A DNA stretch of 64,000 nucleotides from the NCBI RefSeq assembly GCF_900105885.1, contig NZ_LT629780.1, forward strand, positions 868,001-932,000, in the 5' to 3' direction. Of this stretch, positions 52,456 to 64,000 are shown piece after piece. How positions within the stretch are numbered: position 1 is the stretch's first letter; every line of letters starts with the position of its first letter. Under the pieces are notes generated by a model. The model did no database searches, was not told the DNA's origin, and saw only the letters and a program-made list of their open reading frames with translations. This DNA is from Pseudomonas guangdongensis (GTDB lineage: Bacteria > Pseudomonadota > Gammaproteobacteria > Pseudomonadales > Pseudomonadaceae). A program made the position numbers and the translations under genes.

Positions 52456-53778
52456 TCAGAAGCTGAGCAGCCACAGGCTGATCCCGGGGAACAGGGCCAG
52501 CAGCACGATGCGCAGCAGGTCGGAGGTGATGAAGGGGATCACCCCGCGGGCGGTTTCCGCCAGCGGCACGTTGCCGGCGGCGCGCTGGACGATGAACAGG
52601 TTCATCCCCAATGGCGGCGTCACCAGACCGATCTCCACCACCATCAGGGCGAGGATGCCGAACCAGATCGACTTCTCGGACGGGTCCAGGCCGAAGAAGT
52701 CCAGGCCCATGATCACCGGGTAGAAGATCGGGATGGTCAGCAGGATCATCGCCAGCGAGTCCATCACGCAGCCGAGCAGCAGGTAGAGGACGAGGATCGC
52801 CGCCAGCACCAGCATCGGCGCCAGGCCGCTGTTCTTCACCCACTCGGCCAGCTCGTTGGGCATCTGGGTCAGCGCCAGGCCGGAGTTGAGCAGGTCGGCG
52901 CCGAGCAGCACGAGGAAGATCATCGCGGTGGTTTCCGCGGTGCCGAGCAGGCTGGTGCGGATGCCGTCCCAGCGCATGCCGCCCTGGATCACCGCGAGGA
53001 TGCCGCAGGCCGCGGCGCCGATGGAGGCCGCCTCGGTGGGGTTGGACCAGCCGCCGTAGATGCCGACGATCACCACGGTGAACACGCCGATCACCGGCAG
53101 CACGTTGACGAACGCCTTGATCCGCTCGGCCGTGCTGGCCTTGGCCTGCTCCTGATCGTGGCCGCCTTCGCGGGCGACCATGATGCGCAGCACCACCATG
53201 TAGCCGATCACCGCGAGGATGCCGGGAATCACCGCGGCGACGAACAGCTTGGCGATCGACTCCTGGGTCAGCACCGCGTAGATGATCAGCGGCACCGACG
53301 GCGGGATCAGGATGCCCAGGGTGCCGCCGGCCGCCACGGTGGCGGTGGCCAGGCGGCCGGAATAGTTGTGCCGGCGCAGTTCCGGCAGGGCCACGTGGCT
53401 CATGGTTGCCGCGGTGGCCAGCGAGGAGCCGCAGATCGCGCCGAAGCCGGCGCAGGCGCCGATCGCCGACATGCCCAGGCCGCCCTTCCAGTGGCCGACG
53501 AAGGCCGCCGCGCAGCGGAAGATCGCCCGCGACAGGCCGCCGTGGGTGGCGAACTGGCCCATCAGCACGAACAGCGGGATCACCGCCAGGTCGTAGTTGG
53601 ACAGCCGCGAGTAGGCGAGGTTGTTGAGGGTGAACAGCAGCGCGTTGATATCGCCGGAGTTCACCGCCAGGAAGCAGACCGCGCCGCCGATCAGCATGGT
53701 GATGCCGATGTGCACGCGCAAAACCAGCAGGGTCAGGGTAACGGCCAGGCCGATCAGGCCAAGACTCAGACCGCTCAT
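52456..53778 (-). CDS. TRAP transporter large permease (DctM)
   Basis: 440 residues, about twelve TMs, the main channel subunit of a tripartite ATP-independent periplasmic transporter. Recognised by FVLMGQFATHGGLSRAIFR, GSSLATAATMSHVALPEL, AAGGTLGILIPPSVPLIIYAVL and VTPPLGMNLFIVQ, all family-typical. The ATG at 53778 overlaps the small permease stop by four bases. It imports a solute using an ion gradient. Last gene of a three-gene operon read leftward. Confidence 0.93.
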   Translation of the reverse strand: MSGLSLGLIGLAVTLTLLVLRVHIGITMLIGGAVCFLAVNSGDINALLFTLNNLAYSRLSNYDLAVIPLFVLMGQFATHGGLSRAIFRCAAAFVGHWKGGLGMSAIGACAGFGAICGSSLATAATMSHVALPELRRHNYSGRLATATVAAGGTLGILIPPSVPLIIYAVLTQESIAKLFVAAVIPGILAVIGYMVVLRIMVAREGGHDQEQAKASTAERIKAFVNVLPVIGVFTVVIVGIYGGWSNPTEAASIGAAACGILAVIQGGMRWDGIRTSLLGTAETTAMIFLVLLGADLLNSGLALTQMPNELAEWVKNSGLAPMLVLAAILVLYLLLGCVMDSLAMILLTIPIFYPVIMGLDFFGLDPSEKSIWFGILALMVVEIGLVTPPLGMNLFIVQRAAGNVPLAETARGVIPFITSDLLRIVLLALFPGISLWLLSF

Positions 53779-54305
53779 GAACGACCTCCATGGGTCAGGC
53801 AGTGGGCGACCCGCCAGGCGCTGGCCAGCGCCAGCAGGGTCAGGCTGGGCACGATCAGCGCCAGCGGAATCCACATGGGGATCGACAGCAGGGTGGACAC
53901 GTCGCCGTACTCCAGGTTGTCGAGCAGTTGCAGCGCGGTGCGCCAGGCGAGGATCAGCGCGGCGAGCATGCACAGGCTGTGGCCGATGGCGTCCAGACCG
54001 CGCTGCACGCAGCCCGGCAGCTTCATGGTGAAGGTGTCGACCTTGATGTGCAGGCCGCGCATCTCGCACAGCGGCAGGAAGGCGGCGATGGCGATGGACG
54101 CGCCGATCTCCATCAGCTCGATGTCGCCGCGGATCGGCTCGGCGAACAGCTTGCGGCCGATGATCGACACCAGCGACATGTTGATCAGCGCCAGCAGCAC
54201 CACGCCGCCGGCCAGGGCGAAGAATTGGCAGACCCGATAAAGAACGCGGCCCCAGGGGCCGCGTTGCAGTTCCAGGTCGCCTTCGAAGGAAAGCGACTCA
54301 GCCAT
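53775..54305 (-). CDS. TRAP transporter small permease (DctQ)
   Basis: 176-residue membrane protein with about four TMs (residues ~27-48, 64-82, 105-125, 143-163). The DctQ family pattern is seen in RGDIELMEIGASIAIAAFLPLCEMRGLHIKVD. It stabilises the large permease. Six-base gap after the binding-protein gene and an ATGA overlap with the large permease. Confidence 0.92.
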   Translation of the reverse strand: MAESLSFEGDLELQRGPWGRVLYRVCQFFALAGGVVLLALINMSLVSIIGRKLFAEPIRGDIELMEIGASIAIAAFLPLCEMRGLHIKVDTFTMKLPGCVQRGLDAIGHSLCMLAALILAWRTALQLLDNLEYGDVSTLLSIPMWIPLALIVPSLTLLALASAWRVAHCLTHGGRS

Positions 54306-54311
54306 GGTCGT

Positions 54312-55358
54312 TTACCGTGCCGCCTGGGCCGAGGACGAGGCCTGGGCCGCGGCGATGCCGCGCACGCCCTGCAGCAGGGCATTGCCGTCGACGCCCTTGG
54401 CGGCGACTTCCTTGACCCAGTTCTGCGCCACCGGCTCGGCGGCCTTCTGCATGGCCGCGTAGTTGTCGGCGCTGATGTTGACGATCTGCTCGGCCGGAGT
54501 GGCCTGGATGGCGCTCTCCATGTGCTTGTCCCAGACGCCGCTGATCATGTTGTTGAGGGCCTCGCCGCTGTTGCGTTCGAGGATCTCCTGCAGGTCCTTG
54601 GGCAGGCTGGCGAACTTCTTCTCGTTCATCAGCATGGTCAGCACGGTGCTGGTCAGCGACGGCGAGCCGGCCGGCGGCTCGCTGTGGAAGCGGGTCACCT
54701 CGTCGACCTTGACGTCGCGGATGGTGCTCCAGGTGAACAGCACGCCGTCGATCACGCCCTTGGACAGCGATTCAGTCATCTGCGGCGGCGGCATGCTCAC
54801 CGGCGCGGCGCCGAAGGATTCGACCAGCAGCGCGGAGGCGCGGTGCGAGGCGCGCAGCTTCATGCCCTTGAGGTCGTCGAGGCTGGTGATCGCCTTGCTG
54901 CGGGTGTGGAAGCCCATGCCGCCGTCGCCGTGCATGGCCAGCACCTTGTAGCCCTTGAAGTCTTCCTTGGCGTACTGCTGGTAGAACTTCCAGATGATCG
55001 GGTCGCTGTTGCGCGCGCCGTAGGGCATCAGGAACGGCTGCTCGACCGCCTCGATGCGCGGGAACTTGCCCGGCGAGTAGGACGGCGCGGTCCAGACGAT
55101 GTCGGCGACGCCGTTGCGCACCATGTCGGCGAGCTTGGCCGGGGTGCCGCCGAGCTGCATGGACGGGTAGATCTGGCATTCCAGGCGGCCGGCGGACTCT
55201 TCCTTGAGCTTGGCGCACCAGGGCTCGAACATCTCGCGCTGCTGGTAGGAAGTGGACGGCAGGAAGTGACCGAACTTGAGGGTGTAGGTCTCGGCAGCCT
55301 GGGCGGAGGCGGCACAAGCAACGGCGGTGACCAGGGCGGCCAGCTTGAGGCGGATCAT
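54312..55358 (-). CDS. TRAP transporter substrate-binding protein (DctP family)
   Basis: 348-residue periplasmic receptor: signal peptide MIRLKLAALVTAVACAASAQA then a DctP-type bilobed domain beginning ETYTLKFGHFLPSTSYQQ. The stretch DLKGMKLRASHRASALLVES carries the conserved arginine that usually salt-bridges a substrate carboxylate, so an organic acid is likely. A GGGAG site precedes the ATG. First gene of the TRAP operon, driven by the promoter-operator at 55454-55512. Placement next to paaX and aau genes hints at aromatic acids, but this is inference. Confidence 0.93.
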   Translation of the reverse strand: MIRLKLAALVTAVACAASAQAAETYTLKFGHFLPSTSYQQREMFEPWCAKLKEESAGRLECQIYPSMQLGGTPAKLADMVRNGVADIVWTAPSYSPGKFPRIEAVEQPFLMPYGARNSDPIIWKFYQQYAKEDFKGYKVLAMHGDGGMGFHTRSKAITSLDDLKGMKLRASHRASALLVESFGAAPVSMPPPQMTESLSKGVIDGVLFTWSTIRDVKVDEVTRFHSEPPAGSPSLTSTVLTMLMNEKKFASLPKDLQEILERNSGEALNNMISGVWDKHMESAIQATPAEQIVNISADNYAAMQKAAEPVAQNWVKEVAAKGVDGNALLQGVRGIAAAQASSSAQAAR

Positions 55359-55712
55359 GGGTTGCTCCCGAATTATTCTTGTATCGGCTTGTAGGGCTCT
55401 GAGGCTCTTGCCAGCACGCGGCATCGCGGGGCTTGCGGCGAGCCCTCACGCCGAGCATACCCAAAAAGGGATACGGATCAACAATAAAAAAGTCGATTCC
55501 AGTATCCCTTTTATCGCCATTCGACAGGCCGCCACCGGCGCGCCCGAGCGCTGCGGCACGCGGATCGCCACACGATATCCGCAGAAAGCCTCATCAAGGC
55601 TTTGGATCGGCTCTTTTCTGCGCTGCGCCATGCGATACGCAAAAGTACCGCCAAGATGACCGCCCGGCGCACCTATCGTGGCGCGCGCGAGGCCGACGCC
55701 GCGCTTCGGCGC
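55359..55712. other. Intergenic region between the TRAP operon and paaX
   Basis: 354 nt without a credible gene. It holds the TRAP promoter and inverted repeat (55454-55512), a small A/T-richer patch around 55480-55515, and a weak 7-bp hairpin AAAGCCT/AGGCTTT (55585-55603) that could end the paaX transcript. A forward frame over 55327-55659 overlaps the dctP signal region and looks spurious. Confidence 0.6.
55454..55512 (-). promoter_or_regulatory. Promoter and 11-bp inverted repeat upstream of the TRAP operon
   Basis: On the reverse strand, TTGATC (55476-55481) and TATGCT (55454-55459) are 16 bp apart, ~95 nt before the dctP start. The inverted repeat AAAAGGGATAC (55464-55474) and GTATCCCTTTT (55502-55512) places one arm in the promoter spacer and the other upstream of the -35, 38 bp centre to centre. 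This is a typical repressor arrangement; the protein is unknown. Confidence 0.6.
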
Positions 55713-56636
55713 TCAGCGCAGCCCGCCGAAGCGCTGGTAGAAGTTCTCGCCGGCTTCCGGCAGCGGGCCGTCGGCGGTTTCCAGCACCTGGTTCAGCCAC
55801 TGCTCGGCCGGGGCATAGATCAGCCGGTAGATGTTGCGGCACAGCTGGCGCGCGGCGCGCCCTTCCCAGTCGCCGGGGAGCAGCTCGTCGGGCAGCTGCG
55901 GGTCGCGCAGCAGCAGCTTGCGGTATTCGTGGATCAGCAGGGTGCGGGCCAGGAAGCAGTCCTGCGGCTCGTGCCGGTCGGCCTCGCGCAGCGCCTGCCA
56001 GAGCGGGCGGAACAGCTGGATGAACTCGCTGTAGTGGGCGCCGAGGGCGTCGATCTTCCAGCTCTCACGCACCTGCAGGCGCAGCGCCCGCGAGGCCAGC
56101 ACCTCCTGGGCGGTGGTCTCGAACAGGATGGTGTCGTCCAGCGCCTCCAGCTCCTGCAGGGTCGCCGCCACGTCGGCGCGGTCGCAGCGCGGGTTGGCCA
56201 GCACGGTCGGCGCCAGCGCGCCGAAGCCCTGCCACTCCAGCTCCTCGCGCACCTGCTTGCGCTTGTCCGCCTCCAGCTGGGAGAGCACCGCCAGGCACCA
56301 GGTGCCGTCCCAGGCCGGCAGACTGCTGGTATAGATGCGCTTGAAGGCCTTCTCGAAGCGCCGCCGGCCGGGGCCGGTGAGGCTGTAGTAGCTGCGCCGG
56401 CCGACCTTGTCGGCCTTCAGCCAGCCGTCCTTGGTCAGGCGGAACACCGAGGTGCGGATCAGCCGCTGGTTGATGCCCATGGGTTCGAGCAGCTGGATCA
56501 GGCTGCCCAGCCAGACGGCGCCGCCATGGGGTTCGACCGCATCGCCGTAGACGGTGACGATCAGCGAACTGGCACGGATGGGCGTCTGCTCCTGAAAGCG
56601 CTGGATCAGGTTGGCAAGAGGCAGGAGGGAGGTCAT
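55713..56636 (-). CDS. paaX: PaaX, phenylacetyl-CoA-responsive repressor
   Basis: GntR-like repressor of phenylacetate catabolic genes, relieved by phenylacetyl-CoA. 307 residues: N-terminal winged helix (PIRASSLIVTVYGDAVEPHG then RTSVFRLTKDGWLKADKVGRRSYYSLT), the PaaX central domain PAWDGTWCLAVLS, and the C-terminal domain with CFLARTLLIHEYRKLLLRDPQLP. It is reverse-strand and divergent from aauB across 240 nt, so it is placed to control its own and perhaps neighbouring genes. TATAGT (56665-56670, reverse) is a possible -10. Ligand specificity is inferred from the family. Confidence 0.93.
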   Translation of the reverse strand: MTSLLPLANLIQRFQEQTPIRASSLIVTVYGDAVEPHGGAVWLGSLIQLLEPMGINQRLIRTSVFRLTKDGWLKADKVGRRSYYSLTGPGRRRFEKAFKRIYTSSLPAWDGTWCLAVLSQLEADKRKQVREELEWQGFGALAPTVLANPRCDRADVAATLQELEALDDTILFETTAQEVLASRALRLQVRESWKIDALGAHYSEFIQLFRPLWQALREADRHEPQDCFLARTLLIHEYRKLLLRDPQLPDELLPGDWEGRAARQLCRNIYRLIYAPAEQWLNQVLETADGPLPEAGENFYQRFGGLR

Positions 56637-56876: not shown

Positions 56877-58019
56877 ATGCGACTACCCCCTTTCCTTGCA
56901 CGCACGACCCTGGCGCTCGGCATGGCGCTGGCCGGCGCCGCCCAGGCCGAACTGCCGGCGGAAGAACTCGGTCAGGTCACCCTGCCCTTCCCGCCGGAAC
57001 CGCACCGCGCCTACGTCGTCGACGTCGAGTTCGAGAACATGATCGCCACCCGGGTCACCGTGATCGACCCGGACAACAAGCGCATGCTCGGCATGCTCAG
57101 CACCGGCGGCATGGCGCCGATGGTGCCCTCGCGCGACCAGAAGCGGCTCTATACCGCCGACACCTACTGGTCGCGCTACGTGCGCGGCACCCGCACCGAC
57201 ATGCTCACCGCCTGGGACAGCTCGACCCTATCGCCGCTGTGGGAGGTGGAGATTCCGCCCAAGCGCGCCAACAGCATCACCGAGCGCTACGCGCTGACCA
57301 CCAGCAGCGACGACCGCTTCGTCTACATCTACAACTTCACCCCGTCGACCTCGGTCACCGTGGTCGACGTCCAGGCGCGCAAGGCCGTCAACGAGATCGC
57401 CATCAGCGGCTGCATCCTCAACTACCCGGTGGGCGCGCGGCGCTTCGCCTCGCTGTGCGGCGACGGCAGCCTGCAGGTGCTGACCCTCGACGACAACGGC
57501 AAGGAAGTCTCCCGCCACCAGACGCCGATGTTCGATCCCAACCAGGTGAAGATGGTCGAGCGCGCCGTGGCCAAGGGCGACACCTACTACTTCACCACCA
57601 CCGAAGGCGTGGTCCACCCGGTCGACCTGTCCGGCGACAAGCCGAAGTTCCTGCCGACCTGGTCGCTGGTCAGCGAGGACGAGAAGAAGGCCGGCTGGGC
57701 GCCCGGCGGCTGGCAGATGATGGCGCTGGCGCCGCAGCTCGACCGCCTCTACGTGCTGATGCACCCCGACCACCAGCCGCTGATGTGGGAAGATCCGAGC
57801 ACCATCGTCTGGGTCTACGACCTGAAGACCCGGAAGAAGATCGGCACCCTGGAGGCGCCCGGCCTGATGTGGAGCCTGCACGCCACCAGCGACGCCAACC
57901 CGCTGCTGCTCGGCACCACCGTCACCGGCGACATGGAAGTGTTCGATCTGAAGAGCGGCAAGCACACCGGCACCGTGGAGAAGGTCGCCAAGACGCCGAC
58001 CCTGATCCAGAGCCACTGA
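56877..58019 (+). CDS. aauB: AauB, aromatic amine dehydrogenase large subunit
   Basis: Periplasmic seven-bladed propeller subunit of TTQ-dependent aromatic amine dehydrogenase (EC 1.4.9.2), homologous to MauB. 380 residues: signal peptide MRLPPFLARTTLALGMALAGAAQA, then a propeller with repeating blades: VTVIDPDNKRMLGMLSTGG, LTAWDSSTLSPLWEVEIPPKR, SVTVVDVQARKAVNEI, STIVWVYDLKTRKKIGTLEAPG. Assignment to aromatic rather than methylamine dehydrogenase rests on operon layout and paa/fea neighbours, since the two large subunits share the fold. The ATG at 56877 follows AACAGGGAGC; the frame is open 42 codons upstream, but without a signal sequence. Confidence 0.88.
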   Translation: MRLPPFLARTTLALGMALAGAAQAELPAEELGQVTLPFPPEPHRAYVVDVEFENMIATRVTVIDPDNKRMLGMLSTGGMAPMVPSRDQKRLYTADTYWSRYVRGTRTDMLTAWDSSTLSPLWEVEIPPKRANSITERYALTTSSDDRFVYIYNFTPSTSVTVVDVQARKAVNEIAISGCILNYPVGARRFASLCGDGSLQVLTLDDNGKEVSRHQTPMFDPNQVKMVERAVAKGDTYYFTTTEGVVHPVDLSGDKPKFLPTWSLVSEDEKKAGWAPGGWQMMALAPQLDRLYVLMHPDHQPLMWEDPSTIVWVYDLKTRKKIGTLEAPGLMWSLHATSDANPLLLGTTVTGDMEVFDLKSGKHTGTVEKVAKTPTLIQSH

Positions 58020-58029
58020 GGAGGCCGCC

Positions 58030-58569
58030 ATGCCCATCGACCCGATCCTGATCCACGCCTGCGCCCTGGCGCTGGCGGCGATCCTCGCCACCGCGGCGAC
58101 CCACAAGCTGCGCGCGCCGCACTGGTTCGCCGCGCAGCTGCGGGCCTACGCGCTGCTGCCCGAGGCCCTGCTCGGCCCGGCGGCGCGGGTCCTGCCGCTG
58201 GTCGAGGGCGCCATCGCCGTGGCCCTGCTGCTGCCGGCGAGCCGCGCCGCGGCGGCGCTGGCGGGCGCGGCGCTGATGCTGGCGTACGCCGGCGCCATCG
58301 CCATCAACCTGCAGCGCGGTCGCCACGACATCGACTGCGGCTGCGCCGGCCCCGGCGCCAGCCAGCCGCTGCGCCCGGCGCTGCTGCTGCGCAACGCCGC
58401 GCTGCTCGGCCTGGCGCTGCTCGCCGCGCTGCCGCCGCTGTCCCGCTCGCTAGGCCTGTTCGACGGTTTCGTCGCCCTCGCCGCCGCGGCGGTCATCCTG
58501 CTGCTCTACGCGGCGGCCGACGGTCTGCTGACCAACGCCCCGCGCCTGCTCAAACTGACTGGAAGGTGA
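58030..58569 (+). CDS. aauE: AauE (MauE family), amine dehydrogenase maturation membrane protein
   Basis: 179-residue inner-membrane protein of the MauE family, with about four to five TMs (roughly residues 8-24, 50-66, 72-92, 118-136, 146-166) and the conserved cysteine pair Cys103/Cys105 in DIDCGCAGPG. Together with MauD-type protein it is needed to make stable small subunit, probably by supplying disulfides or export help. It lies 10 nt after aauB and 4 nt before aauD. Confidence 0.88.
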   Translation: MPIDPILIHACALALAAILATAATHKLRAPHWFAAQLRAYALLPEALLGPAARVLPLVEGAIAVALLLPASRAAAALAGAALMLAYAGAIAINLQRGRHDIDCGCAGPGASQPLRPALLLRNAALLGLALLAALPPLSRSLGLFDGFVALAAAAVILLLYAAADGLLTNAPRLLKLTGR

Positions 58570-58573
58570 AACC

Positions 58574-59197
58574 ATGGAAGCCCTGATCGTTTCCAACATC
58601 CTGCTGTGGGTCCTGCTGATCGTCCTGGCCTTCGTGCTGATGGGCCTGGTGCGCCAGATCGGCGTGCTGCACGCTCGCCTCGCCCCGGCCGGCGCCCTGG
58701 TGATCGACAAGGGCGTGGCGGTCAACGCCGCCGCGCCGCAGATCACCGCCGCCGACCGCAACGGCCGTCCGGTGAACTTCGGCTACCCCTCCGACCGCGG
58801 CCAGCTGTTGTTCTTCCTCTCGCCCAGCTGCCCGATCTGCAAGTCGCTGCTGCCGGCGGTCAAGGCCATCGCCAAGGCGCGCAGCGACCTCGACGTGGTC
58901 TACGTCAGCGACGGCGAGCCGGAAGCCCAGGCCGCGCTGATCCGCGAGTTCAAGCTGGACGACGCCGCCTACGTGGTCGGCCCGGAGGTCGGCATGACCT
59001 ACCAGATCGGCAAGCTGCCCTACGCGGTACTGATCGATAAGGCCGGCACCCTGCGCGCCAAGGGCCTGGTCAACTCCCGCGAGCATCTGGACAGCCTGTT
59101 CGAGGCCGAGCAGATGGGCATCGCCTCCCTGCAGGACTACCTGCACAACCCCGACCACGCTCACGGCCACGACAACGCCGTGAAGATCCACCAATAA
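58574..59197 (+). CDS. aauD: AauD (MauD family), thioredoxin-like maturation protein
   Basis: 207 residues: one N-terminal membrane anchor (about residues 8-28), then a periplasmic thioredoxin-like domain with the redox motif SPSCPICKSLLPAVKA (Cys86 and Cys89) and a cis-Pro region LPYAVLIDKAGTLRAKGL. MauD homologues are required for the six disulfide bonds of the small subunit. The C-terminus is His-rich (NPDHAHGHDNAVKIHQ), perhaps metal binding. Third gene of the operon. Confidence 0.9.
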   Translation: MEALIVSNILLWVLLIVLAFVLMGLVRQIGVLHARLAPAGALVIDKGVAVNAAAPQITAADRNGRPVNFGYPSDRGQLLFFLSPSCPICKSLLPAVKAIAKARSDLDVVYVSDGEPEAQAALIREFKLDDAAYVVGPEVGMTYQIGKLPYAVLIDKAGTLRAKGLVNSREHLDSLFEAEQMGIASLQDYLHNPDHAHGHDNAVKIHQ

Positions 59198-59218
59198 GAA
59201 GGCCCGAGGAGACTCCCG

Positions 59219-59740
59219 ATGAAACTACTGGACATGCTGTTCGAGCGCTCCGCGCGCCGGGTCGCCGACGTCACCTCGCGCCGCCAGGCGCTGTCGCGCC
59301 TGGGCTCCTGGCTGGTGGCCGGCGCCGCCCTGCCGCTGCTGCTGCCCATCGACCGCGCCTCCAAGGCCCACGCCGAAACCGGCAACCCCGGCGATCCGGG
59401 CGATCCCAGCAACTGCGACTACTGGCGCCACTGCTCGGTGGACGGCTTCCTGTGCAGCTGCTGCGGCGGCACCACCACCAGCTGCCCGCCGGGCACCGAA
59501 GTGTCGCAGATCACCTGGGTCGGCACCTGCCGCAACCCGGCCGACGGCAAGAACTACGTGATCTCCTACAACGACTGCTGCGGCAAGCAGGCCTGCGGCC
59601 GCTGCGCCTGCACCCGCAACGACAGCGAGGAGCCGATGTACCGGCCGTTCAACAACAACGACGTCAACTGGTGCCTGGGCGCCAAGTCCAACAGCGTCTA
59701 CAACTGCACCGTCTCGGTGATCCGCGGCGTCGCGTCGTGA
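59219..59740 (+). CDS. aauA: AauA, aromatic amine dehydrogenase small subunit (TTQ-bearing)
   Basis: Catalytic subunit, 173 residues. A long basic N-terminus with a twin-arginine-like start (TSRRQALSRLGSW) precedes a signal region ending near AHA (residue ~52). The mature part has 14 cysteines. Trp100 and Trp151 are 51 apart, the same spacing as the TTQ-forming pair of MADH (57/108) and A. faecalis AADH (109/160). Asp119 and Asp75 fall at the catalytic-base and TTQ-biogenesis positions (+19 and -25). Cysteine spacing CSCCGG, YNDCCGKQACGRCAC matches the family. Fourth gene of the operon. Confidence 0.93.
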   Translation: MKLLDMLFERSARRVADVTSRRQALSRLGSWLVAGAALPLLLPIDRASKAHAETGNPGDPGDPSNCDYWRHCSVDGFLCSCCGGTTTSCPPGTEVSQITWVGTCRNPADGKNYVISYNDCCGKQACGRCACTRNDSEEPMYRPFNNNDVNWCLGAKSNSVYNCTVSVIRGVAS

Positions 59741-59754
59741 CCGGAGGTGCCGCC

Positions 59755-60279
59755 ATGCGACTGCTGATCCTCGCCGGACTGGCCGCCGTGCTGGCGGCGC
59801 CGCCGGCGCTGGCCCGCGCCATTCCCGACCCGCAACAGAAACCGGCGCCCGGCAACGAGGCGCCGCAGACGCCGATCGCCCAGGCCGGCTACAGCGCGGC
59901 GACCAACTACCAGCTGCAGTGCCTGGGCTGCCACCTGACCCACGGCGAGGGCGCGCCGCGCAACGACACGCCACGGATGACCGGCTTCGTCGGCAACTTC
60001 CTGCGCGTCGAGGGCGGCCGCGACTTCCTGGTCCGCGTCCCCGGCGTGGCCCAGTCGGCGCTCAGCGACGCGCAGATCGCCGAGCTGCTCAACTGGATCC
60101 TCGATCCGCAGGGTATGGCCGGCGCCAGCACCCCGGCCGACTTCCGCCCCTACAGCGCCACGGAAGTCGGCCAGGTGCGCCGCCAGGCCCTGCTCAACCT
60201 GCCCGGCACCCGCGCCGAGCTGATCGCCCGGATGCGCGCGCAGGGCATCGCCATCGACGACGGCATGGGCACGCCGTAG
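59755..60279 (+). CDS. Monoheme cytochrome c of the aau operon (orf-2 type)
   Basis: 174 residues: Sec signal (MRLLILAGLAAVLAAPPALA) and a heme site CLGCH with Cys56, Cys59 and His60. Candidate axial methionines are Met75 and Met121. It corresponds to the monoheme cytochrome reported after aauA in A. faecalis. It could carry electrons from reduced TTQ; in A. faecalis azurin is the studied acceptor, and no azurin gene is seen here. The start ATG at 59755 follows GGAGGTGCC. Operon ends with a strong terminator. Confidence 0.82.
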   Translation: MRLLILAGLAAVLAAPPALARAIPDPQQKPAPGNEAPQTPIAQAGYSAATNYQLQCLGCHLTHGEGAPRNDTPRMTGFVGNFLRVEGGRDFLVRVPGVAQSALSDAQIAELLNWILDPQGMAGASTPADFRPYSATEVGQVRRQALLNLPGTRAELIARMRAQGIAIDDGMGTP

Positions 60280-60444: not shown

Positions 60445-61935
60445 TCAGTGGGCGATGCACACCGACTTGATCTCGGTATAGGCCTCGATCACCGCGCGGC
60501 CGAACTCGCGGCCGACGCCGGACTGCTTGACCCCGCCGAACGGCATGTTGGGGTCGAGCAGCACATGGGCGTTGACCCACACGGTGCCGGCCTCGATGCG
60601 CGGCACCAGGTTCATCGCCTTGGTCAGGTCGTTGGTCCACAGGCTGGCGGCCAGGCCGTATTCGCTGTCGTTGGCCAGGGCGATGGCCTCCTCGTCGCTG
60701 TCGAAGGCCAGCACCGAGAGCACCGGGCCGAACACCTCGTCGCGGGCGATGCCCATCTCCTGGCGCACGTCGGCCAGCACGGTGGGCTGCACGTAGAAGC
60801 CGGCGCCCTCCAGCGGCGTACCGCCGGCCACCACGCGGGCGCCCTCGGCGCGGGCCCGGGCGATGTGCTCCAGCACGCTCTGCTGCTGGCGGCGCGACAC
60901 CAGCGGGTTGATCGCCGCGCTCGCATCCATGCCCGGCCCGACCTTCAGCGCGGCCACCGCCTCGCCCAGCCGGGCGACGAACTCGGCGTAGCGCGAGCGG
61001 TGCACGTAGAAGCGCGAGGCGGCGGCGCACACCTGGCCCTGGTTGAGCAGGCCGCCGAGCAGCGCACCCTGCACGGCCTTGTCGAGGTCGGCGTCGGCCA
61101 GCACGATCATCGGGTTCTTGCCGCCCAGTTCGAGGGCGAAGCGGGTCATGTTCTGCATGGCGGCGATGCCGACGCCGCGGCCGACCTCGGTGGAGCCGGT
61201 GAACGACACCTTGCTCACCAGCGGGTGGCCGGCCAGGGCGTTGCCGATGCGGCTGCCGCGGCCGGTGACCAGGTTCAGCGCGCCGGCCGGCACCCCGGCC
61301 TCATGGGCCAGCTCGACCAGGCGCAGGGCCGACAGCGGGGTTTCGCTCGCCGGCTTGAGCACCACGGTGCAGCCGCAGGCCAGCGCCGGCATGGCCTTCC
61401 ACAGGGCGATCATCAGCGGGAAGTTCCACGGGATGATCCCGGCCACCACGCCGACCGGCTCGCGGCGGGCGAAGGCGGTGTAGCGCGCGCCCTGCGGGAT
61501 GGGGATCGACACGTCGAGGCTCTGGCCCTCGATCTTGGTCGCCCAGCCGGCCATGTAGCGCATGAACTCGACGCTGGCGCCGACGTCGAGCATGCGCGAG
61601 GTGTTGATCGACTTGCCCTGGTTGAGGGTTTCCAGCTGCGCCAGCTCCTCGCCGTGTTCCTCGACCAGCGCGGCGAAGCGCAGCAGGATGCGCTCGCGGT
61701 CGGCCGGGCGCAGGCCCGACCACACGCCGTTCCTGAACGCGGCATGGGCCGACTGCACGGCGCGGTCGAGCAGCGCCTCGTCGGCCTCGGCGACCTCGGC
61801 GATGCGCTCGCCGCTGGCCGGGTCGAGCACCGGGCTGCGCGGGCTGTCGTCGATCAGCCACTGGCCGTCGATGAAGCAGCCGTGACGGCGCTGAAGAAAG
61901 GCCGCGACCTGCGGCAGGACGTTGACGACACTCAT
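60445..61935 (-). CDS. feaB: FeaB-type phenylacetaldehyde dehydrogenase
   Basis: NAD-dependent aldehyde dehydrogenase, 496 residues (E. coli FeaB 499). Catalytic Cys303 in NQGQVCAAASRFYVHRS, general-base Glu269 in LELGGKNPMIVLADAD, NAD site VSFTGSTEVGRG, and PWNFPLMIALWKAMPAL. The tetramer signature matches the FeaB/betaine-aldehyde group, so phenylacetaldehyde specificity is assigned from neighbours: FeaR-type regulator upstream, aau operon and paa genes alongside. The ATG at 61935 has GAGGT eight bases upstream; an upstream frame start is rejected. Confidence 0.88.
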   Translation of the reverse strand: MSVVNVLPQVAAFLQRRHGCFIDGQWLIDDSPRSPVLDPASGERIAEVAEADEALLDRAVQSAHAAFRNGVWSGLRPADRERILLRFAALVEEHGEELAQLETLNQGKSINTSRMLDVGASVEFMRYMAGWATKIEGQSLDVSIPIPQGARYTAFARREPVGVVAGIIPWNFPLMIALWKAMPALACGCTVVLKPASETPLSALRLVELAHEAGVPAGALNLVTGRGSRIGNALAGHPLVSKVSFTGSTEVGRGVGIAAMQNMTRFALELGGKNPMIVLADADLDKAVQGALLGGLLNQGQVCAAASRFYVHRSRYAEFVARLGEAVAALKVGPGMDASAAINPLVSRRQQQSVLEHIARARAEGARVVAGGTPLEGAGFYVQPTVLADVRQEMGIARDEVFGPVLSVLAFDSDEEAIALANDSEYGLAASLWTNDLTKAMNLVPRIEAGTVWVNAHVLLDPNMPFGGVKQSGVGREFGRAVIEAYTEIKSVCIAH

Positions 61936-62030
61936 GGGAATACCTCGCGGGCGCTGGATCGGGGAGCCGCGCACCGCCTCGGGCCTGCGCGCGGAGATTC
62001 GCCGGGCATTGTGCGCAGGCGCCGGAGCGC

Positions 62031-62077: not shown

Positions 62078-63001
62078 TCAGGCCTCCGGCCGGTAGCGCT
62101 TGCGGTACTCGCCGGGCGACACGCCGAAGCGCGCCTTGAAGGCGGTGGAGAAGTAGCTGGAGTCGGAGAAACCCCAGGCGTAGCCGAGCGCCGACAGCTT
62201 CAGCTCGCTGCCGGCGTGGCGCAGCGCCTCGGCGCAGAAGTCCAGGCGGCGGTTGCGGATGTACTGCGCCACCACCAGCTGGCGGCGGGCGAACATCCGG
62301 TACAGGCCGCGCAGCGACACGCCGATCTCGCGGGCGATCAGCTCCGGGCTCAGCTCAGGCTCGCAGAGGCGCCGGTCGATCAGCGTCACCGCGCGGCGGA
62401 ACAGCCGCTCGTGCGGATCGTCGTCGCTGTCGACGCCGGCCAGCGCCGGGCGCAGCAGGCTGAGCAGGGCATCCAGGGTCGCCTCGCTCTCCGCCAGGCT
62501 CAGCCCTTCCTGGCGCGCCGACTCGCGCACCAGACTGTTGGCCAGCACCGCCACCGGGGTGTGCGCGGCGATCCGCGCGCAGCTGCGCACGCCGGAGAAG
62601 CGCAGGCTGCGCTCGACCACCTCGCGCGGCAGGATCAGGCTGAGCTGGCGCGAACTCTCGCCGTACTCGAACTCGCTGGGCCGCGCCGCATCGATCAGGG
62701 TGATGTCGCCGGGAGCGAGGACGATGCGCTGGGTGTCCTGGGCCATCTGCGCGCGGCCTTCGAGCTGGAACACCGCGAAGTAGCCCTTGTCCTCGCCGGC
62801 GGCCAGCTCGCGCTCGGTGCGGTACAGCCGCGCGTGGGCGATGTCGTTGAACGACATCTGCAGCGCGCCGCTCTGGTACTGCTCGATGCGCCCGGCGAAC
62901 GCGTCGCCCAGCGCCTTGGCGCAGAAGCGCCCGCACAGCTCGTTGACGCGCTGCAGCCAGCCGTCGAGCGCCTGGTCCCGCGCCATGTGCCTGCTGTTCA
63001 T
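62078..63001 (-). CDS. feaR: FeaR-type AraC family transcriptional activator
   Basis: Activator of phenylethylamine-type amine catabolic genes in E. coli (feaB, tynA). 307 residues: an N-terminal AraC-binding-like domain (about 1-190, with DAFAGRIEQYQSGALQMSFNDIAHARLYRT region) and a C-terminal double helix-turn-helix (about 205-305), with LIAREIGVSLRGLYRMFA and GYAWGFSDSSYFSTAFKARF. The start MNSRHMARDQ at 63001 has GGAGG seven bases upstream; an upstream ATG giving 42 more residues lacks a ribosome site and is Ala/Arg-rich. It sits between paaY and feaB. Confidence 0.9.
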   Translation of the reverse strand: MNSRHMARDQALDGWLQRVNELCGRFCAKALGDAFAGRIEQYQSGALQMSFNDIAHARLYRTERELAAGEDKGYFAVFQLEGRAQMAQDTQRIVLAPGDITLIDAARPSEFEYGESSRQLSLILPREVVERSLRFSGVRSCARIAAHTPVAVLANSLVRESARQEGLSLAESEATLDALLSLLRPALAGVDSDDDPHERLFRRAVTLIDRRLCEPELSPELIAREIGVSLRGLYRMFARRQLVVAQYIRNRRLDFCAEALRHAGSELKLSALGYAWGFSDSSYFSTAFKARFGVSPGEYRKRYRPEA

Positions 63002-63048
63002 TCGCCACCTCCCGGCATGTTCAGCCTGGCGCAGCCCGGCAGCGCCGC

Positions 63049-63642
63049 TCAGGACACGCCCTTGGGCTTGACCTCGGAGAGCGGCAGACGCGGCCGCTCG
63101 GCTTCCGGCTCGGCGAGCGGCGCGCACTCCTCCAGCTGGGTCAGGCAGCGCTCGGCGAGCACCTGGTACTCGCGGGTACCGGCCTGCTTCCAGGCCACTT
63201 CCTTGTCGCTGAGCTGACGGGCGACCCGCGCCGGCGCGCCCATCACCAGCGACTGCTCCTCGCAGGCGAAGCCGGCCTTGACGAAGGCGCAGGCGGCGAC
63301 GATGGAGCGCGGCGCGATCTGCGCCTCGTCCATCACCACCGCGTTCATCCCGACCATGGCGTCCTCGCCGATCTGGCAGCCGTGCAGCACCGCGCCGTGG
63401 CCGACGTGGCCGTTGCGGGCGATGCGGGTGACGCTCTCCGGGAAGCCGTGGATCACGCAGGTGTCCTGCAGGTTGGCCCCCTCTTCGAGGACGATGCGCC
63501 CGAAGTCGCCGCGCAGGCTGGCCAGCGGACCGACGTAGCAGCCGGGGCCGACGATCACGTCGCCGATCAGCACTGCGGTGGGATGGACGTAGGCGGTGGG
63601 GTGCACCACCGGGGTGACCCCGGCGTAACGGTAGCAGGGCAT
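63049..63642 (-). CDS. paaY: PaaY, phenylacetate-pathway thioesterase/gamma-carbonic anhydrase fold protein
   Basis: 197 residues, left-handed beta-helix with hexapeptide repeats (VHPTAVLIGDVIVGPGCYVGP, VIHGFPESVTRIARNGHVGHG). Metal-ligand histidines include HGF and HVGHGAVLH. In E. coli PaaY is a thioesterase that hydrolyses ring-1,2-epoxide or related CoA dead-end products; it guards the paa pathway. Length is the same as E. coli (196). GAGG precedes the ATG. Confidence 0.93.
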   Translation of the reverse strand: MPCYRYAGVTPVVHPTAYVHPTAVLIGDVIVGPGCYVGPLASLRGDFGRIVLEEGANLQDTCVIHGFPESVTRIARNGHVGHGAVLHGCQIGEDAMVGMNAVVMDEAQIAPRSIVAACAFVKAGFACEEQSLVMGAPARVARQLSDKEVAWKQAGTREYQVLAERCLTQLEECAPLAEPEAERPRLPLSEVKPKGVS

Positions 63643-63710: not shown

Positions 63711-64000
63711 TTATGCGCCGGCGACGTGGCGGCGGCTCTGCACCACCACGAAGCGCCGGGCGACGAAGGCCGCGTCGGTCAGCGCGGCATTCGCCGCCGG
63801 GTTGGCGCCGGTGCCGTGGAAGTCGCTGAACGCCGCCGACTGGTTGACGAACAGGCCGTTGTCCAGATTGACCGACAGCGCCACGCCGACATCCTGCGCC
63901 AGTTCCTCGGCCTGCTCCAGCACTTGCGCGTCGGTCGAGTATACCGCCAGGGTCAGCGCGCCCTTCTCGCTGAGGGTCTCGCGCACCAGCTGCAGGCTGT
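63711..64000 (-). CDS. PaaN-like (aldehyde-dehydrogenase family) phenylacetate pathway protein, C-terminus only
   Basis: About 96 C-terminal residues; the 5' part lies beyond the right edge. The sequence LSVNLDNGLFVNQSAAFSDF then HGTGANPAANAALTDAAFVA and the end FVVVQSRRHVAGA recall the PaaN proteins of Pseudomonas (ALDH-like, without the MaoC hydratase domain of E. coli PaaZ). Same strand as paaY. With only a fragment, the family call is moderate. Confidence 0.65.
   Translation of the reverse strand, partial: SLQLVRETLSEKGALTLAVYSTDAQVLEQAEELAQDVGVALSVNLDNGLFVNQSAAFSDFHGTGANPAANAALTDAAFVARRFVVVQSRRHVAGA

Follow-up and report, generated by a model that had tools for sequence, protein, structure and literature searches.

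A monohaem cytochrome without the methionine loop accompanies MauG-less tryptophan tryptophylquinone dehydrogenases and is a candidate for their maturation

The stretch of Pseudomonas guangdongensis DNA considered here (hereafter the window: 64,000 nucleotides of contig NZ_LT629780.1, positions 868,001 to 932,000) carries at its positions 56877..60279 a five-gene operon for an amine dehydrogenase of the type that uses tryptophan tryptophylquinone (TTQ), in the order aauB (large subunit), mauE, mauD, aauA (small subunit) and a gene for a single-haem cytochrome c. In the genomes searched, this cytochrome, for which we use the name VPG cytochrome of our own making, goes with TTQ dehydrogenases that lack MauG. 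We propose, with a probability of roughly 0.4, that it is the TTQ maturation protein of these MauG-less enzymes, a single-haem protein that would have arisen from a c552-type carrier by deletion of the methionine loop. The broader statement, which comprises the identity of the operon, its pathway and a dedicated role of the cytochrome, be it maturation or another one, can be made with good though not full confidence. A sequence-only reading of the same DNA had described the operon and its neighbours without going into its most unusual part, the cytochrome devoid of the methionine loop.

As far as we know, the way in which aromatic amine dehydrogenase (AADH) obtains TTQ without MauG has not been settled. 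In methylamine dehydrogenase (MADH), the completion of TTQ is assigned to MauG (PMC7699789, PMC7876137). No account of AADH maturation or of a VPG cytochrome was found in the literature surveyed, including the accessible parts of PMC7876137, PMC6405878, PMC7699789, PMC8746199, PMC4640556 and PMC4949571, a survey that does not extend to most of the relevant journals and leaves room for prior description in print. The present observations narrow the question of TTQ formation without MauG to one candidate gene, present where MauG is not in the loci examined. If the proposal is true, it would reveal a second, unrelated route to TTQ biosynthesis, more widespread than MauG itself, and a short five-gene cassette for the production of TTQ enzymes in other hosts. 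An aau cluster with an orf-2 was reportedly described by Chistoserdov in 2001, and the joint expression of aauBEDA and orf-2 in Paracoccus denitrificans is said to have yielded active AADH in the hands of Hothi in 2005; both would agree with the proposal, and the maturation idea may already stand in one of them.

Distribution and anatomy of the VPG cytochrome

To compare the cytochrome with MauG across loci, 158 loci were sorted, 116 of them distinct by small subunit; 108 were without mauF, mauJ and mauG and 8 carried at least one of the three, absence being judged by BLAST at E 1e-5 with P. denitrificans queries. Removal of L157, a fragment whose second cytochrome has no CXXCH motif, leaves 107 loci of the first kind. 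A VPG cytochrome stands beside the small subunit in 103 of these and in none of the 8 MADH-type loci, counting as present the one of L080, split over two frames whose pieces were not joined; L190 is cut by a contig end. Among the four exceptions, L191 lies at a contig end, and L122, L130 (genome G127) and L243 (G1188) are aauB-aauA pairs, in which neither mauE, mauD nor the cytochrome was found. The genomes of these pairs also carry five-gene clusters (L123, L244), on which the pairs may depend for maturation. In the loci of the other type, mauG was seen in 6 of 8, L148 being cut by a contig end and L131 showing none. One of the 8, L129, encodes between mauJ and mauG a different single-haem cytochrome, which the models place in the conventional type.

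Single loci show the same association. Genome G1264 has two TTQ clusters, of which the MauG-type one (L245) is without VPG cytochrome and the MauG-less one (L246) encodes it, and in L121, where mauE and mauD are located elsewhere, the VPG cytochrome still follows the small subunit. As separate observations, L125 (genome G013) holds a small subunit and a loop-less cytochrome, with large subunit, mauE and mauD not found nearby by BLAST; moreover, L129 and L131, from two genomes of the window's class, are MauF/MauJ-type loci with nearby open reading frames (ORFs) of seven CXXCH motifs, and no mauG was seen within 6.5 kb in L131.

The association extends to whole genomes. Searches were made with a model of 30 VPG cytochromes (alignment A3, whose rows include loci from some of the genomes searched), scoring for each genome the best 17 first-look candidates in Pseudomonadaceae or the best 11 in the class of genome G742, a class other than the window's that we take to be Alphaproteobacteria. 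Of 218 Pseudomonadaceae genomes, 54 have a strong match (at least 151 bits), precisely those that encode the small subunit, and the 63 copies of each protein correspond genome by genome; the other 164 genomes contain no strong match, two partial ones of 39.7 bits having passed the 1e-8 limit. Similarly, of 337 genomes of the second class, the 12 with a small subunit have strong matches (at least 122 bits) and the 325 others none, apart from one partial match of 40.7 bits; here 12 cytochromes face 14 small subunits, those of L243 and L245 being without partner. Matches of 39.7 to 49 bits (G901, G949, G916, G701, G1257) were set aside by score, and the results were already known when the limits were placed at about 150 and 122 bits; the genome lists for the two proteins, in which genomes without a match appear in part, were compared by reading. 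The supply of MauG from elsewhere in the window genome was also considered and rejected: the only CCP_MauG protein found there (330 aa; 29% identity with P. denitrificans MauG in the region that aligns) is encoded far from aau and was taken by eye as an ordinary peroxidase.

A second cytochrome is found in 19 of 104 clusters with a VPG cytochrome (the fragment L157 included). Sixteen of these second proteins carry a single haem and have, without exception, an M[PQ] motif, a count that took proteins with one CXXCH only and left L137, L256 and L257 outside. Given 103 of 107 against 19 of 104, the loop-less cytochrome is the constant part of the cluster and the second cytochrome an option.

The VPG cytochrome of the window is encoded on the forward strand at 59755..60279 and has 174 aa and one CXXCH motif (CLGCH). 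It is unmatched by Pfam; of the 30 proteins in alignment A3, 21 match PF00034 (E 0.01). Its best solved relatives are c552-type cytochromes; specifically, it resembles Thermus cytochrome c552 and aligns with it on both sides of the distal loop. In comparison with c552 and with the conventional cytochromes of some clusters, however, the alignment shows about 20 residues of the distal-loop region to be missing from the VPG cytochrome, and in c552 this loop carries the methionine ligand of the haem. Descent from a c552-type protein that lost the methionine loop is the origin suggested by this alignment. Between the GR motif and N[WY], the segment is of identical length in all 139 distinct sequences that are long enough to contain it (135 by pattern, 4 by eye).

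The distal methionine that conventional class I carriers conserve is not conserved in the VPG family: besides CXXCH, no column holds M, H, K or C in more than 85 of 131 VPG cytochromes, and 54 of 135 GR-to-N[WY] segments contain no methionine at all. A methionine placed directly after VPG was considered as a general axial ligand and rejected as a family feature, the residue at this position being M in 55 of 135 sequences and V (38), I (22), S (14), A (5) or T (1) in the rest; the window protein has V. From the loop deletion and the variability of the residue after VPG, the haem is predicted to be without a fixed sixth ligand.

Maturation factor or electron acceptor

The mechanism that we favour would assign to the VPG cytochrome the oxidation of the TTQ precursor, as performed by di-haem MauG in MADH, and azurin or another carrier would then receive the catalytic electrons. 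Several features argue for maturation: the methionine loop is missing, a normal second cytochrome is present in some clusters, and the window genome encodes one azurin-like protein. Moreover, the cytochrome is kept separate from mauF, mauJ and mauG, and is absent jointly with mauE and mauD from the aauB-aauA pairs. In its proposed role it would resemble MauG in being a periplasmic c-haem protein coded with the TTQ enzyme, with a haem predicted to be open to small molecules. It differs from MauG in that it has one CXXCH haem rather than two, no CCP_MauG domain and 174 aa as compared to 387 in P. denitrificans.

A number of points weigh against this proposal. Any partner tightly linked in one operon, and an electron acceptor no less, would be expected to co-occur with its neighbours. 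In addition, the switch between MauG and the cytochrome coincides with one deep split of the dehydrogenase tree, and counts for this reason as one evolutionary contrast and not as many. We know of no precedent for the two-haem chemistry of MauG in a single class I haem. The methionine after VPG could ligate the haem in those species whose cytochrome has it (55 of 135), and 130 of 131 cytochromes conserve a tyrosine at the fourth position ahead of the haem motif; this tyrosine should lie in the first, N-terminal helix, away from the open face of the haem, and is for that reason improbable as a ligand. Finally, an AlphaFold2 model of the cytochrome, built from 22 sequences, reached a mean predicted local distance difference test score (pLDDT) of 68.7, which is too poor for use.

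The closest competitor, to which we give nearly equal credit, is that the VPG cytochrome serves the dehydrogenase as a dedicated physiological acceptor of its electrons, taking the place that amicyanin has in MADH, with TTQ either forming by itself or relying on an unlinked protein. Its gene adjoins that of the small subunit, at or close to the place that amicyanin takes in three of the MADH clusters read, and its ancestry is of the carrier type, with c552-type proteins as best solved relatives; the supply of partners from another cluster, as proposed for the pairs, would suit a carrier equally well. Three points speak against an acceptor: c-type carriers typically have a methionine ligand, which this family does not conserve, the optional second cytochrome retains M[PQ] wherever it has a single haem, and an azurin-like protein is encoded elsewhere in the window genome. 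On balance, the maturation role is held to be only slightly more likely than the acceptor role, the remaining probability being left to a structural or other role.

The dehydrogenase, its substrate and its genomic neighbourhood

The remaining genes of the operon are all on the forward strand and intact, as is that of the cytochrome. The aauB-like gene (56877..58019) encodes the large, beta-propeller subunit of 380 aa (PF06433, 174.7 bits), with a signal peptide judged by eye. It is followed by genes for two accessory proteins, namely a mauE-like membrane protein (58030..58569; PF07291, 97.8 bits) and a mauD-like protein of thioredoxin fold (58574..59197; TIGR02661, 211 bits against a cut-off of 188.6), whose product is likely to act in disulfide formation in the small subunit. 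The aauA-like gene (59219..59740) encodes this small subunit (PF02975, 174.2 bits), in which a twin-arginine-type leader, SRRQALSRLG, was recognised by eye. With intergenic gaps of 10, 4, 21 and 14 nt, the ORFs and their families bear out the five tightly spaced forward genes that had been read from the letters alone. Both subunits of a TTQ amine dehydrogenase are thus encoded, and the small one keeps W100, W151, D75 and D119, which are invariant across 14 aligned homologues; by analogy with MADH, we take the two tryptophans to be those that form TTQ and the two aspartates to be catalytic.

The best solved relative of the large subunit is AADH of Alcaligenes faecalis (EC 1.4.9.2; 2h3x, 189.8 bits), the best MADH scoring 144 bits. 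For the small subunit, the same AADH leads with 167.9 bits, followed by MADH chain 3c75_L with 166.8 (a match that includes the leader) and by the next MADH with 138. Both subunits fall short of the equivalog cut-offs for MADH, with 181.3 against 454.45 for the large one (TIGR02658) and 179.1 against 196.85 for the small one (TIGR02659). In a tree of the joined subunits from 72 loci, which omits 5 of 77 small subunits (L031, L125, L127, L157, L203) for want of a large subunit above 250 aa, the 7 MADH-type loci separate from all others with support 100. The window belongs to a clade of 21 tips (support 100) from Pseudomonas, Marinobacter, Halomonas, Salinisphaera and Alloalcanivorax, within a group of 32 tips (support 81) that is sister to a group of 33 tips containing A. 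faecalis AADH (support 79).

Gene content is in line with this placement. The operon shares with mau clusters of Paracoccus and Methylobacterium the homologous subunits, MauE, MauD and both TTQ tryptophans, but the mau clusters read also carry mauF, amicyanin, mauJ, di-haem mauG and mauM/N, none of which was found in the window operon; specifically, BLAST with the P. denitrificans queries (E 1e-5) found no mauF, mauJ, mauG or amicyanin near it. MauE and MauD without mauF, mauJ and mauG is the composition expected of an AADH-type cluster. With A. faecalis the operon shares the two TTQ subunits, the MauE and MauD homologues and the closest solved relative of both subunits; it differs in belonging to the sister lineage (support 81 against 79), in an identity of 31% for the large subunit (363 aligned positions) and 60% for the small one (111 positions), and in its location between paaX and feaB/feaR. 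The A. faecalis cluster itself was looked for without success in 36 genomes of another family, where the relatives reached 58-66% only; its gene order, its orf-2 and its lack of mauF, mauJ and mauG are here presumed.

Taken together, these comparisons support an AADH-like amine dehydrogenase that is of the TTQ type and does not belong to the group of MADH, and the tree comparison with AADH and MADH sets that had been suggested as a check did not yield the MADH placement. The claim of an AADH operon therefore stands as far as a TTQ enzyme distinct from MADH is concerned, whereas the AADH name and the attached substrate list, phenylethylamine and its like, are carried over from a sister lineage and not from within the lineage of the characterised enzyme. 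Two points count against a closer identification: the narrow margin by which the small subunit prefers AADH over the best MADH chain (167.9 against 166.8 bits), and the sister position itself, by reason of which the substrates may differ.

In view of the sister lineage and the 31% identity of the large subunit, the case for aromatic substrates depends mainly on context. Upstream of aau and divergent from it lies the gene for PaaX, repressor of phenylacetate degradation (55713..56636, reverse strand; TIGR02277, 328.5 bits, cut-off 264.55). Downstream, all on the reverse strand, follow genes for a phenylacetaldehyde dehydrogenase resembling FeaB and StyD (60445..61974; PF00171, 583.4 bits; best NCBIfam model StyD with 679.2, below its cut-off of 850), for the AraC-family activator FeaR (62078..63127; NF007243, 342.4 bits, cut-off 199; the start codon is not settled and the listed ORF overlaps paaY), for the hexapeptide-repeat protein PaaY of phenylacetate degradation (63049..63642; TIGR02287, 325.7 bits, cut-off 319.6) and for the C-terminal part of PaaN (63711..64000). 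The paaN gene runs past the window end and is whole, without its stop codon, at 2215-3945 of L258 (TIGR02288, 922.1 bits, cut-off 578.75). Further forward ORFs past the window end were named by eye, from their starts and with no family search, as paaF, H, I, J, K, C, D and E; paaA and paaB were not recognised among them by the same by-eye naming. The phenylacetate island thus reads paaX, aau, feaB-like, feaR, paaY, paaN and further paa genes, and the fea and paa neighbours previously noted are confirmed, with FeaR, PaaY and PaaX above their cut-offs.

In the pathway proposed, the large and small subunits would form a periplasmic TTQ amine dehydrogenase of the aau type, with MauE and MauD assisting the folding of the disulfide-rich small subunit. 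The substrates of the enzyme would be primary aromatic amines, with 2-phenylethylamine as the most likely one. The aldehyde formed would be turned by the FeaB-like dehydrogenase encoded next to the operon into phenylacetate, whose degradation would fall to the adjacent paa genes, while FeaR probably switches the amine-oxidation step on. Aromatic-amine oxidation is supported by the fea and paa context, which upholds this much of the substrates proposed earlier; both substrate and regulation are read from that context. In E. coli, according to PMC4640556, FeaR activates tynA and feaB, and TynA is a copper/topaquinone oxidase that releases hydrogen peroxide. The two arrangements share a FeaR gene and a FeaB-like gene beside the amine-oxidising step, which in the window would be performed by a TTQ dehydrogenase and not by a TynA-type enzyme. 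No copper amine oxidase (PF01179) was found in the window genome, a negative of which we are only moderately sure since the E. coli control, of unnamed strain, was also unmatched and only Sulfolobus acidocaldarius is listed among 14 controls. The view that a non-homologous TTQ enzyme occupies the slot of TynA beside fea genes is, given this role of FeaR, a fair one.

The same context bears on an alternative that we judge rather improbable, namely that the operon encodes a TTQ dehydrogenase of a third kind, which would naturally act on something other than an aromatic amine, for example an aliphatic amine, and would have paa genes nearby by coincidence only. Besides the 31% identity to A. faecalis AADH and the modest support of the sister placement, it would account for the 50 of 80 named relatives in which no fea or paa gene occurs within the stretch examined, of up to 8 kb on each side, a figure that also weighs against our own assignment. 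On the other hand, the operon of the window sits between paaX and the feaB, feaR, paaY, paaN and paa genes, and fea or paa genes are present in the other 30 of the 80 loci, with feaR in 21 (at least 45% identity) and paaX in 14 (at least 60%). By far the least probable alternative is the MADH operon to which Pfam and automatic database names ('methylamine dehydrogenase light chain') point, which is dismissed by the equivalog cut-offs, by the tree and by the BLAST searches (E 1e-5, P. denitrificans queries) that found no mauF, mauJ, mauG or amicyanin in the cluster.

Conservation and spread of the operon

Among the best 80 of 567 confirmed loci, those from named genomes, 78 have the full order aauB-mauE-mauD-aauA-cytochrome (genes sorted by stop codon), including two with split genes (the large subunit of L031 in two pieces; in L080, two MauE pieces and the cytochrome in two frames). 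The other two (L015, L078) show mauE-mauD-aauA-cytochrome with no large subunit found, in sequence that starts less than 1 kb upstream of the small subunit. Such a conserved arrangement is far from chance. The nearest named loci are from Pseudomonas linyingensis, Pseudomonas sagittaria, Pseudomonas oryzagri, Pseudomonas sp. A-1 and a strain filed as Stutzerimonas stutzeri K1, one of them being called Geopseudomonas by one source.

The operon is of an already known kind and ordinary by frequency. PF02975 is present in 54 of 218 genomes of the window's family, in 13 of 369 sampled genomes of its class and in 11 of 398 of its phylum, as well as in 12 of 337 genomes of the class of G742. Within the genus, the small subunit was found in all 8 genomes searched, that of the window included, and in two copies in three of them. 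Two aau operons are present in 3 of these 8 genomes, the second (L132 in G003, L133 in G006, L136 in G005) being of the general Pseudomonas type and having its own cytochrome, feaB-like and feaR-like genes.

TRAP transporter genes recur near aau. In the window they occupy 52456-55424 on the reverse strand and adjoin paaX, the binding protein dctP (54312-55424) being recognised by family and the membrane parts by eye; they also adjoin aau in the close relatives L016 and L017 and stand beside two of the second aau operons (L133, L136). Other clusters are located on plasmids. L154, an AADH-type cluster on a Paracoccus plasmid, lies near genes annotated as cytochrome c3 family and tyrosinase family, and Pseudomonas aeruginosa plasmids carry L150 and L151, aau-type clusters that each encode two cytochromes; L151 is flanked on both sides by recombinase and Tn3 transposase genes, with mercury-resistance genes further out.

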